Below the pieces are notes generated by a model. It ran no database searches. It saw nothing but the letters and a program-made list of their open reading frames with translations, and had not been told where the DNA came from. The position numbers were made by a program, and so were the translations under genes. Source: Bacteroidota bacterium (GTDB taxonomy: Bacteria; Bacteroidota; Bacteroidia; Sphingobacteriales; Sphingobacteriaceae). From it: DNA of 64,000 nucleotides. The DNA is taken from the NCBI GenBank assembly GCA_018828585.1, contig JAHJVW010000128.1, positions 27,187 to 91,186 of the forward strand, read 5' to 3'. Positions 17,959-22,143 of the stretch are shown here, in pieces (within the stretch, counting starts at the first letter, position 1; every line of letters starts with the position of its first letter).

Positions 17959-18111
17959 AGACTCTTGAAAAATGCAGCGCCTTTATTTATTCAGTATTTA
18001 AAAAATTCAGAATATACTCAATATTATATTGAATATTTAAGCGTTATCTCTCAAACTTTATTGAGGGTAAACTCAGCATTACACGGTTAAGTTATTAAAC
18101 AGCATTAAATC

Positions 18112-18534
18112 ATGGATAGGAAAGATTTTTTAACCGCAATTGGAATGGGTGCGGCATCTGTCGCGGTTTTTAATTGTATAGGTTGTGCAAAGGGCTCAAC
18201 AGGCAGTCCTTCAACTCCAGCGCCTACAAATGTAAATTTCACTTTAGATTTAACGACAGCGGCAAACGCTGCATTAACTAATAATGGTGGTTATATTTAT
18301 AATAATGGGGTTATTGTAGCCCGTACCACAACAGGCGCTTATATTGCCGTGTCACAAACTTGCCGACATGAGAGTACCTCTGTTATTTATAGAGCTAATC
18401 AAAATCAGTTTTACTGCCAAAGACATGGTGCTACTTATTCAGAAACTGGTGTTTCTGCAGGTATAATAACTAATCTACCTTTAACTAAATACAACACGCA
18501 ACTTACTGGTACAAATCTTCGTATCTTCTCTTAG
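18112..18534 (+). CDS. Rieske (2Fe-2S) domain lipoprotein
   Basis: Lipobox-like NCIGC; Rieske C-x-H...C-x2-H motifs (CRH...CQRH). Confidence 0.82.
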   Translation: MDRKDFLTAIGMGAASVAVFNCIGCAKGSTGSPSTPAPTNVNFTLDLTTAANAALTNNGGYIYNNGVIVARTTTGAYIAVSQTCRHESTSVIYRANQNQFYCQRHGATYSETGVSAGIITNLPLTKYNTQLTGTNLRIFS

Positions 18535-18552
18535 CATACTAAATTAAAAATC

Positions 18553-18981
18553 ATGAAATTATTGAGTATCTTTTTTTTATCCTTAGTGGTATCAGGAAAC
18601 ATTTGGGTTTTAGATTTTAAACAAGCAGAAACAGAAGCTAAGCAAAGTCATAAATATATCTTGATTAACTTTTCGGGGTCTGATTGGTGCGGCCCATGTA
18701 TTCGTACACACAAAGAAATTTTTGAAAAAGACGCTTTCGAGGATTATGCCAATAAAAATTTGATCTTAGTTAGAGCTGATTTTCCACGATTGAAAAAGAA
18801 TCAACTTTCGGCTGATCAGCTGAAGAAAAACAATGATTTAGCCGTTAAATACAATCCAGATGGAGACTTTCCTTTAACTGTCTTAACAGACGAAAATGGT
18901 AAAGTGATCAAAGAATGGAAAGGATTTCCTGATTGTTCTCCAGAAGAATTTGTAAAGAAAGTGGAAAATGCCATTAACTGA
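18553..18981 (+). CDS. Periplasmic thioredoxin-family protein
   Basis: Signal peptide and SGSDWCGPC active site. Confidence 0.88.
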   Translation: MKLLSIFFLSLVVSGNIWVLDFKQAETEAKQSHKYILINFSGSDWCGPCIRTHKEIFEKDAFEDYANKNLILVRADFPRLKKNQLSADQLKKNNDLAVKYNPDGDFPLTVLTDENGKVIKEWKGFPDCSPEEFVKKVENAIN

Positions 18982-19915
18982 TTCATCCAAACTTCAGGTT
19001 TTTAAGCAAGCAATGAAATTGATGGGTAATCAATTCGAGATTTCTGTGGTTGCTGAAGATGAAGCTTTCGCCGATGAAAAAATAAACGACGCTGTTGCTG
19101 AAATTAAACGAATTGAGCAATTACTCACCACTTTTAGGCATGATAGTCAAACGAATCAAATCAATGAAAACGCAGGAATTAAACCTGTCAAGATAGATTC
19201 AGAAGTTTTTCACTTAATTCAACGCTCTTTACGTATTTCAGAAATTAGTCAAGGAGCATTTGATATTACTTATGGCTCCTTAGATAAACGTTTCTGGAAT
19301 TTCGATAAAGACATGGATAGCTTACCCGATAAAGAATTAGCAAAACAATCCGTAGCGTTAATCAATTACAAAAACGTCATTTTAGATGCTGAGGGTCAGA
19401 CAGTTTTTTTAAAAGAAAAAGGAATGCGAATTGGCTTTGGTGGTATAGGCAAAGGTTACGCAGCCGATCGAGCAAAAAGACTTTTGCAAGAGGCTGGTGT
19501 AGCAAATGGTATTGTAAATGCCTCAGGAGATTTAGTAACTTGGGGATTACAGCCCAATGGTCAACCCTGGACAGTGGGCATTGCAGATCCTGAACATAAA
19601 TTAAAGTCCTTTTCTTATATGAATATCAGTAATATGGCCATTGCCACCTCTGGTAATTACGAGAAGTTTGCAGTAATTAATGGTAAAAAGTATTCCCATA
19701 CGATTGATCCTCATACTGGTTTTCCGGTAGCTGGAATTAAAAGTGTGAGCATTATCTGTCCACAAGCTGAGCTCGCAGATGCATTGGCTACTCCTGTTAC
19801 AGTGATGGGTGTTGAGGTTGGATTAAATTTAATTAATCAATTAAATAATGTTGCATGTATTATTATTGATGATGATAATAAGCTGTATACATCAAAAAAT
19901 ATAAATATTAACTAA
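18968..19915 (+). CDS. apbE: ApbE-family FAD:protein FMN transferase
   Basis: GGIGKGYAADRA, NASGDLVTWG, HTIDPHTGFP motifs; overlaps the thioredoxin gene. Confidence 0.93.
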   Translation: MPLTDSSKLQVFKQAMKLMGNQFEISVVAEDEAFADEKINDAVAEIKRIEQLLTTFRHDSQTNQINENAGIKPVKIDSEVFHLIQRSLRISEISQGAFDITYGSLDKRFWNFDKDMDSLPDKELAKQSVALINYKNVILDAEGQTVFLKEKGMRIGFGGIGKGYAADRAKRLLQEAGVANGIVNASGDLVTWGLQPNGQPWTVGIADPEHKLKSFSYMNISNMAIATSGNYEKFAVINGKKYSHTIDPHTGFPVAGIKSVSIICPQAELADALATPVTVMGVEVGLNLINQLNNVACIIIDDDNKLYTSKNININ

Positions 19916-19948
19916 ATAAAAAGCTGAATGCAAATCGTTCATATAAAA

Positions 19949-20167
19949 ATGAAAAGAATAACCCCTTATGTAATTTTGGCATTATCACTCGTTGCCTTTA
20001 GTTCTTGTAGTCATGTTAAAGCTTATGAGAAAATGAAATTAAAAGATGCTGAAATGGAGCTTGGTGCTAGAAGAGCTGAAAAGTTTGAGCAAAATTTTCA
20101 GCTTTATCGAGAGGGTTCATCTGGCGCAAATGGTGGAAAAAGTGGTGGTGGTTGTGGTTGTAACTAA
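19949..20167 (+). CDS. DUF4266-type small lipoprotein with GGGCGCN C-terminus
   Basis: Start at MKRITPYVILALSLVAFSSC (lipobox); SGGGCGCN tail; ApbE and DUF3570 neighbours. Confidence 0.8.
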   Translation: MKRITPYVILALSLVAFSSCSHVKAYEKMKLKDAEMELGARRAEKFEQNFQLYREGSSGANGGKSGGGCGCN

Positions 20168-20184
20168 ATCTTTTAATTGTTGAT

Positions 20185-21387
20185 ATGAAATACATTTCAT
20201 TAACCTTAGTTACACTCTATTTAAGTATAGCGGCAAGCTTTGCACAGACCATTAAAAGGGATACTGTGCCATATGAAAAGCAAAAATTAAAGTTTGAGCA
20301 AGCAGACTTGGTGAATAGTTACTACCATCAAGACGGTAATAATTCCGCTGTAACAGGTGGAATAGGAACAGAAAAATTAACTGATTTTTCAAATACATTC
20401 GATTTACAATTATCGCGTTACGGTAAAACAGGTTTAAAACACACTTATAATTTTGAAGTCGGTTTCGACGCTTATACTTCAGCTTCATCAGACAATATTG
20501 ATCCTAATACCCGTACTGGTCCATCCTATTCCGACGTGAGAATATATCCTTCCATTAGCTGGGATATTGCCAATGAACAAAAAGGACATAGTTTTGGATT
20601 TGATGTTTCTACGTCACATGAGTTTGATTATTCTTCTTTTGGAGGAGGCTTGCATTATTCTAAATCTTCAAAAGATAAAAACACTGATTTTGATATTAAA
20701 ATAAAGGCGTTTTTTGATACTTGGAAAGTAATTCTTCCAATAGAGCTTAGACCAGATAATTTTGGTGGTCCAGGCTACCAACAAAATGACCGGGCACCAA
20801 GAAATTCTTTTAGTGGGGCATTAAGTTTGTCACATGTTTTCACCAAGAATTTTCAAGCCCTTATAATGGTTGAACCTGCTTACCAGCAAGGATTATTGGC
20901 TACCAGATATCAAAGGGTATATTTTAACAACTTGGCATCTAGAGCTGAATATTTACCAGATAACCGACTAAAATTACCAATAGGGGCAAGATTAAATTAC
21001 TTTTTAGGAGATAATTTAGTATTCCGTTCTTTCCTTAGATATTATACGGATGATTGGGGAATTAAATCTGAAACAGCCGAGTTAGAAACGGCAATTAAAT
21101 TAAATCCTTTTGCATCAATAAGCCCATTTTACAGATATTATCAACAATCAGCAGCAGATTATTTTGCCGCCTACGCAAAACACTCTGCTAACGATAACTT
21201 TTATACAAGTGATTATGATCTATCTAAATTTCATAGCAATTATTATGGCGCTGGAATTAGATTTGCACCACCAACAGGAGTTTTGGGTATATCGAGAGTC
21301 TCTATGATTGAACTGCGATATGGACATTATACGAGGAGTAATGGTTTAAACTCCAATATAGTGAGTATTAACCTCCGATTTAAATAA
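20185..21387 (+). CDS. DUF3570 domain outer-membrane beta-barrel-like protein
   Basis: Signal peptide, alternating aromatic strands, terminal IVSINLRFK, DUF4266 neighbour. Confidence 0.8.
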   Translation: MKYISLTLVTLYLSIAASFAQTIKRDTVPYEKQKLKFEQADLVNSYYHQDGNNSAVTGGIGTEKLTDFSNTFDLQLSRYGKTGLKHTYNFEVGFDAYTSASSDNIDPNTRTGPSYSDVRIYPSISWDIANEQKGHSFGFDVSTSHEFDYSSFGGGLHYSKSSKDKNTDFDIKIKAFFDTWKVILPIELRPDNFGGPGYQQNDRAPRNSFSGALSLSHVFTKNFQALIMVEPAYQQGLLATRYQRVYFNNLASRAEYLPDNRLKLPIGARLNYFLGDNLVFRSFLRYYTDDWGIKSETAELETAIKLNPFASISPFYRYYQQSAADYFAAYAKHSANDNFYTSDYDLSKFHSNYYGAGIRFAPPTGVLGISRVSMIELRYGHYTRSNGLNSNIVSINLRFK

Positions 21388-21390
21388 AAA

Positions 21391-21416
21391 AAGCCTCGAT
21401 TAATATTCGAGGTCTT
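21391..21416. terminator. Bidirectional terminator between convergent genes
   Basis: CCTCGA-TTAATAT-TCGAGG with A-run on one side and T-rich sequence on the other. Confidence 0.75.
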
Positions 21417-21432
21417 TTCTACTTACAGCAAA

Positions 21433-22143
21433 TTATCCCATCGGAACTTCAATAATTAACACTTTAGAATCAAGCTTTGTGTTAATCTTGACTTCAGTAA
21501 TCTCATAAATACCAATCGCATCTCTATTTTTTAATTCCTTTTGGCCAGTTTCTATACCTCCTTCTAAAAGGAAAATATATACTCCATTATTCTTATCCTT
21601 TAGTTGATAGGTAAATTCTTTTTCTGCATCTAAATTTCCTAAAGAAAAATAAGCATCTTGGTTAATCCAAATGCTTTTAGCATCTTTTTCTGGTGAAACT
21701 ACAGTTAAAAAGTTGTTTTTCTTTTCATCCTCTGTGAAAGATTTTTGCTCATATCTTGGAGCAATGTTAACTTCCTTAGGGAAAACCCAAATTTGCAAGA
21801 ATTTTACAGCATCTTCTTTCGAAGCATTATATTCAGAATGAGAAATACCAGTTCCTGCAGACATGATTTGCACATCTCCTTGCTTGATGATCGCTTCTCT
21901 TCCTGTACTGTCATTATGTATTAAAGCTCCTGATAATGGAATGCTAACGATCTCCATGTTATCATGAGGATGTGTTCCGAAACCCATTCCTTTCTCAACA
22001 TGATCATCATTTAAAACTCTTAACAAACCAAAATTCATCTTTTCTGCGTTGTGAAACTTGCCAAAACTAAATGAGTGGTAACTGTTTAGCCAACCGAAAC
22101 TATTGAAGCCTCTGCCGCCTGCTGGGTGAAATACTGTTTTCAT
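21433..22143 (-). CDS. Pirin family protein
   Basis: FNSFGWLNSYHSFSFG, GFGTHPHDNMEIVSIPLSG. Confidence 0.93.
   Translation of the reverse strand: MKTVFHPAGGRGFNSFGWLNSYHSFSFGKFHNAEKMNFGLLRVLNDDHVEKGMGFGTHPHDNMEIVSIPLSGALIHNDSTGREAIIKQGDVQIMSAGTGISHSEYNASKEDAVKFLQIWVFPKEVNIAPRYEQKSFTEDEKKNNFLTVVSPEKDAKSIWINQDAYFSLGNLDAEKEFTYQLKDKNNGVYIFLLEGGIETGQKELKNRDAIGIYEITEVKINTKLDSKVLIIEVPMG

Follow-up and report, generated by a model that had tools for sequence, protein, structure and literature searches.

The five genes at positions 18112-21387 of the window (the whole stretch of 64,000 nucleotides analysed here) belong to the kind of flavinylation system that is built around DUF3570, here with a putative Rieske relay added and with an ApbE that has no leader. 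The gene content itself is ordinary, and clusters of ApbE, DUF3570, thioredoxin and DUF4266 were already described by Meheust et al. in 2021 (PMC8238504); the leaderless ApbE and the Rieske accessory are undescribed in the papers searched. The earlier note had called the set a poorly characterised envelope redox system whose end function was unclear. The reading as an envelope redox system was upheld, but the core of the set is already in the literature. In the full-text literature searched, PMC8238504 was the only paper naming DUF3570 or DUF4266, and nothing was found on the function of the cluster beyond it. We believe that the predicted surface-side flavin sites and the two undescribed features make this variant worth a test.

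All five open reading frames are present on the plus strand (Table 1), and their Pfam matches (Rieske, Thioredoxin_2/7, ApbE, DUF4266 and DUF3570) all lie above the family cut-offs, which bears out the claim of five tightly spaced, co-directional genes. The claimed overlap was also found: the thioredoxin and ApbE genes share 14 nt, and the remaining intergenic gaps are 12-18 nt. Because gltX lies upstream and a convergent pirin gene lies downstream, the operon most likely consists of these five genes. The pirin gene (21433-22143) and the operon have the terminator region in common. The gap between gltX and the Rieske gene (17959-18111) holds a near-palindromic AT-rich stretch (TCAATATTATATTGA), which could be a regulator site.

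Table 1. Features of the cluster in the window.
Feature	Position	Strand	Evidence
Rieske [2Fe-2S] protein, 140 aa	18112..18534	+	Pfam PF00355 1.9e-7; PDB match 5cxm; orthologue alignment
Exported DsbH-like thioredoxin, 142 aa	18553..18981	+	Pfam PF13098/PF13899 (Thioredoxin_2/7) 8e-11/2e-9 (PF13899 1.9e-9); PDB 2ju5
ApbE FAD:protein FMN transferase, 315 aa, without signal peptide	18968..19915	+	Pfam PF02424 1.2e-84; PDB 7esa 4e-49
DUF4266 lipoprotein, 79 aa	19928..20167	+	Pfam PF14086 2.5e-18; alignment
DUF3570 outer-membrane beta-barrel, 400 aa, expected FMN acceptor	20185..21387	+	Pfam PF12094 3.2e-25; AF2 model; Foldseek porin-type matches
First probable flavinylation site T98-S-A-S101 (DUF3570)	20476..20487	+	alignment + AF2 model
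Second probable flavinylation site T111-G-P-S114 (DUF3570)	20515..20526	+	alignment + AF2 model
Intrinsic-terminator-like hairpin followed by T, closing the operon	21393..21413	+	

The window holds all four families of the published system: an ApbE with its catalytic residues, an adjoining DUF3570, a DUF4266 with a C-terminal CXC and a PF13899 thioredoxin, all in one neighbourhood. PMC8238504 included clusters with at least one exported protein among its four target families, and here the N-terminus of DUF3570 is hydrophobic and ends in SFAQ, as judged by sequence and hydropathy. The window cluster differs from the system of PMC8238504 in its added Rieske lipoprotein, leaderless ApbE, diverged flavin motifs and unlinked DsbD. 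The published DUF3570 clusters occur with or without DsbD (316 were reported without a linked DsbD), and some contain VIT1 iron transporters (PMC8238504).

Among 60 relatives, the genomes with DUF4266 were exactly those with DUF3570 (15/15); all 15 have ApbE and none has FMN_bind. In 80 loci drawn from genome contigs of many Bacteroidota families, the order thioredoxin-ApbE-DUF4266-DUF3570 was nearly always kept. The identical genome sets and the kept order indicate that the grouping is not due to chance. DUF4266 was found in 54 of 198 genomes sampled evenly over the phylum. In the neighbourhood check proposed earlier, the four-gene core is kept across many Bacteroidota families and in one Vibrio lineage, the only one found, which came from a plasmid collection and has the order thioredoxin-DUF4266-DUF3570-ApbE-DsbD. 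ApbE lies downstream of DUF3570 in L030, L040 and L046. Three further loci (L047, L049 and L051) have DUF4266-DUF3570 clusters without an adjoining ApbE and nonetheless keep the flavin motif; their ApbE may lie elsewhere in the genome.

DUF3570 is an experimentally demonstrated substrate of its ApbE in Chlorobium luteolum, where both serines had to be replaced, and its published flavin motif is two [S/T]GA[S/T] (PMC8238504). The ApbE substrate, which the earlier note had left unclear, is therefore expected by analogy to be the DUF3570 protein of the window. That note also saw no ApbE target motif in the neighbours; such a site is present in DUF3570 (TSAS with S101, TGPS with S114) and was missed because it has diverged, YTSAS and RTGPS standing in place of the published motif with the positions kept and the letters changed. 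Two sites are common to the aligned DUF3570 proteins, and in the window protein they lie 13 residues apart. The first reads TSAS, SSAS or TAAS in 97/97 aligned rows, with S101 invariant. The second reads SSAS, SGAS, TGAS, TSAS, TGPS, SSPS or SGPS in 94/97 rows, and the TGPS of the window protein may be unmodified. The canonical SGAS/TGAS occurs in the DUF3570 proteins of f36, another family of the phylum, and of Vibrio, the latter being a better fit to the Pfam model. The second site is lost and the first kept in the DUF3570 proteins of L011 (1647-3023), L065 (5989-7248) and L081 (5992-7248). The genome search found a single ApbE in the window genome, and family searches for FMN_bind, DUF2271 and NQR2 (NqrB)/RnfD found none, which leaves DUF3570 as the one candidate substrate within the families searched for. 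DUF4266 was also considered as a substrate and rejected from the alignment, its conserved SGAN having no acceptor Ser/Thr at the last position.

AlphaFold2 was run on DUF3570 with 48 homologues, and with broken strands counted as one the model is a 16-strand barrel (mean pLDDT 86.5, pTM 0.79). The loops after odd strands have about 14 residues on average and the turns after even strands about 5, and both termini are on the short-turn side. In outer-membrane proteins, the short-turn side with the termini generally faces the periplasm. By this rule the loop after strand 3 (99-115), which carries both flavin sites and has S101 at the top of strand 3, would be on the extracellular side; residues 102-114 of this loop have pLDDT < 50. 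The even strand number, the signal peptide and the long loops on one side are those of an outer-membrane beta-barrel, and DUF3570 is predicted to be a 16-strand barrel with both flavin sites in one loop on the extracellular side. No such three-dimensional model was found in the papers searched. Foldseek with the model returned porins, OmpG and AlgE and no specific structural relative, and no credible solved relative was found by sequence. Among the invariant residues are many charged ones (Arg, Lys, Glu and Asp) inside strands, which suggests a charged barrel lumen that might accommodate a flavin. Docking of the DUF4266 tail in the barrel found no support: L018 has a natural in-frame read-through from DUF4266 into DUF3570, and when this was modelled as one chain, the CGCN tail had pLDDT < 50 and made no ordered contact.

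The thioredoxin has the active site WCGPC (18685-18699). Its closest solved relative is the chlamydial DsbH/thioredoxin disulphide isomerase (5e-16), yet its match to NCBIfam DsbH (1.9e-24) reaches 86.6 bits against a cut-off of 190. The C-terminal GGGCGCN of DUF4266 is kept in 81 aligned homologues, with CGCN at 20153-20164. The window genome has two DsbD_TM matches, both on other contigs and neither in the cluster. With DsbD_TM present in 59/60 relatives, a DsbD donor is at hand but has no specific tie to the cluster. Next to the window cluster itself, neither DsbD nor an iron transporter nor a cytochrome was found. Over the 80 loci, the neighbours include a VIT1-family transporter (17), cytochrome b561 (15) and, in several cases, DsbD or its N-terminal domain. 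In many Sphingobacteriaceae (L028, L034-L036, L038, L044 and others) the cluster has this transporter beside it, together with cytochrome b561 and the genes of a two-component pair. Thiol or metal maturation of DUF4266, once proposed as the purpose of the cluster, found no support.

The Rieske protein has a lipoprotein-like N-terminus with probable lipid Cys25 and the ligands C84-x-H86 and C102-x2-H105. Its best PDB match is the b6f Rieske protein 5cxm (7.5e-6), and in the alignment the positions of the disulphide cysteine pair of high-potential bc1/b6f proteins are not Cys. Rieske proteins without these extra cysteines tend to have a lower potential. In 26 of the 80 loci (Sphingobacteriaceae, Chitinophagaceae, Flectobacillaceae, Cytophagaceae and Flavobacteriaceae) the gene directly precedes the cluster and is co-directional with it. 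A close orthologue (at least 53% identity) occurs in 10/15 cluster genomes, each time in the cluster, vs 1/45 of the other relatives. Since it is missing from two thirds of the loci, the Rieske protein is an accessory and not a core part. This addition was not found in the papers searched, and the word Rieske is absent from the text of PMC8238504. In the Flectobacillus-type loci L041 (2356-5988), L043 and L045, two Rieske genes lie in tandem, and DUF4266 and DUF3570 are separated by a DsbD N-terminal domain that stands alone.

In this study, we give an even chance to a mechanism in which the thioredoxin and DUF4266, with the Rieske protein, feed a surface flavin on the DUF3570 barrel, the FMN is attached by the leaderless ApbE, and an extracellular acceptor is reduced. 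Synthesised in the FAD-rich cytosol, ApbE would put FMN on S101 (probably on S114 too) of DUF3570 while this is still a precursor, either ahead of Sec export or in the course of it; the flavinylated barrel would then be inserted into the outer membrane. DsbD, encoded elsewhere in the genome, would keep the DsbH-like thioredoxin reduced, and the thioredoxin would reduce DUF4266 at its CGC tail. Electrons would then go from this lipoprotein, the Rieske lipoprotein or both to the flavins, which would in turn reduce the acceptor outside the cell; iron uptake, with Fe(III) as that acceptor, is the most plausible use. Fe(III) is perhaps the acceptor, as suggested only by the VIT1 neighbours of other loci and the published VIT1 link (PMC8238504). 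We infer the electron direction, the acceptor and the flavinylation site; the weakest links, likewise inferred, are the direction of electron flow, the electron path to the surface-side flavin and flavinylation before export. Surface flavins would be far from the periplasmic donors, which speaks against the mechanism, as do the undocked CGC tail of the single-chain model, the departure of the window motifs from [S/T]GA[S/T] and the lack of a DsbD, iron transporter or cytochrome gene next to the window cluster. Should the flavin sites indeed face outwards, the cluster would offer soil and freshwater Bacteroidota a haem-free candidate route for extracellular electron transfer.

The likeliest of the alternatives, though still improbable, is a thiol pathway. 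Instead of an extracellular reductase, the barrel with its flavins, DUF4266 and the thioredoxin would form an envelope module for disulphide/thiol repair or oxidation, with FMN as an electron sink to oxygen. The DsbH-like thioredoxin, the strongly kept CGC end of DUF4266 and the association with DsbD (in PMC8238504, in our own loci and in Vibrio) all agree with it. However, thiol repair has no need of flavins placed in an extracellular-side loop of an outer-membrane barrel, and the presence of VIT1 and cytochrome b561 among the neighbours suggests a link to metals or respiration.

The ApbE departs from the usual periplasmic picture, a point that the earlier note did not raise. The window ApbE has the catalytic HTIDPHTG and DALAT, and neither a signal peptide nor a lipobox was found: it has no hydrophobic stretch, and its start is preceded by a stop codon only a few codons away, which leaves no room for a signal peptide upstream. 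Leaders were called by Kyte-Doolittle hydropathy and not by a trained predictor, from the 10-residue stretch with the highest value ahead of the domain. All 77 ApbEs of the window's wider clade (L002-L085) are leaderless, the maximum never exceeding 1.65. In the 12 ApbEs of the sister clade (L086-L097) the stretch reaches 1.89-3.68 and ends in Sec-type cleavage sequences, none of these ApbEs being leaderless (0/12). The thioredoxin, DUF4266 and DUF3570 N-termini of those loci are hydrophobic with few exceptions. On the ApbE tree of L002-L097, midpoint-rooted and with one long branch, the leader state changes once. With the phylum-wide additions, 48/71 ApbEs are leaderless and 23 have a signal. 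Sec-type signals occur in relatives from marine Flavobacteriaceae, Hymenobacter and others. The enlarged tree, from a short search, has two changes, in the window's clade and in f36 with Vibrio, with signal-bearing lineages between them; the Vibrio ApbE is on a very long branch and its place is unsure. It too is leaderless, with an in-frame stop just upstream. A cytosolic-type ApbE beside an exported barrel is therefore recurrent, being found in the window clade, f36 and Vibrio, and is no local error.

This feature of the cluster was not found in the papers searched, nor was any route with pre-export flavinylation of an outer-membrane barrel. Excerpts of the 2025 ApbE review (PMC12052999) pair cytosolic ApbEs with cytosolic targets only. 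The periplasmic ApbEs in these excerpts, which act on FMN_bind/NqrC-type substrates, belong to the same enzyme family and the catalytic motifs are kept, whereas the window ApbE has no signal or lipoprotein anchor, an outer-membrane barrel as its likely substrate and a genome without FMN_bind. The cytosolic Klebsiella ApbE, which the excerpts describe as acting on soluble fumarate reductase, also has no signal peptide, but its substrate is cytosolic, and the only substrate of a known type found here is exported. We consider it quite possible, at somewhat less than an even chance, that in a large part of the family a cytosolic ApbE puts FMN on the barrel precursor before secretion, and that the protein passes Sec and BAM to display two surface flavins. 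The leaderless ApbE predicts a flavin attached before export, against the usual periplasmic picture.

Against such pre-secretion flavinylation, it is also conceivable, with low probability, that ApbE acts on an unrecognised cytosolic protein, its place beside DUF3570 being historical and DUF3570 no longer flavinylated. The absent signal peptide, the diverged window motifs and the fumarate reductase precedent (excerpts of PMC12052999) would fit this. The genome has no FMN_bind domain, however, S101 is invariant in both leaderless and signal-bearing clades, and separate leaderless lineages retain ApbE together with DUF3570. It is just as improbable that ApbE reaches the periplasm in another way (partner-carried or non-classical) and flavinylates DUF3570 there like its relatives with Sec-type signals, which would spare FMN on an unfolded precursor the passage through Sec and BAM, because both a TAT motif and a hydrophobic stretch are absent and a hidden fusion giving a signal, by a programmed thioredoxin-ApbE frameshift, was rejected on the varying frame relation and the three loci with ApbE downstream of DUF3570. 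FMN attachment to the precursor in the cytosol is the reading we prefer.

Two further observations concern gene copies. The Hymenobacter plasmid copies of ApbE (L102 3464-4563) and DUF3570 (L103 4845-6097) are split over two frames, possibly by decay or sequencing error. In Chitinophagaceae and related genomes, tandem DUF3570 copies lie behind one ApbE (L064 5998-8430, L080 5968-8604, L085 5995-8579 and L078 2879-5578).
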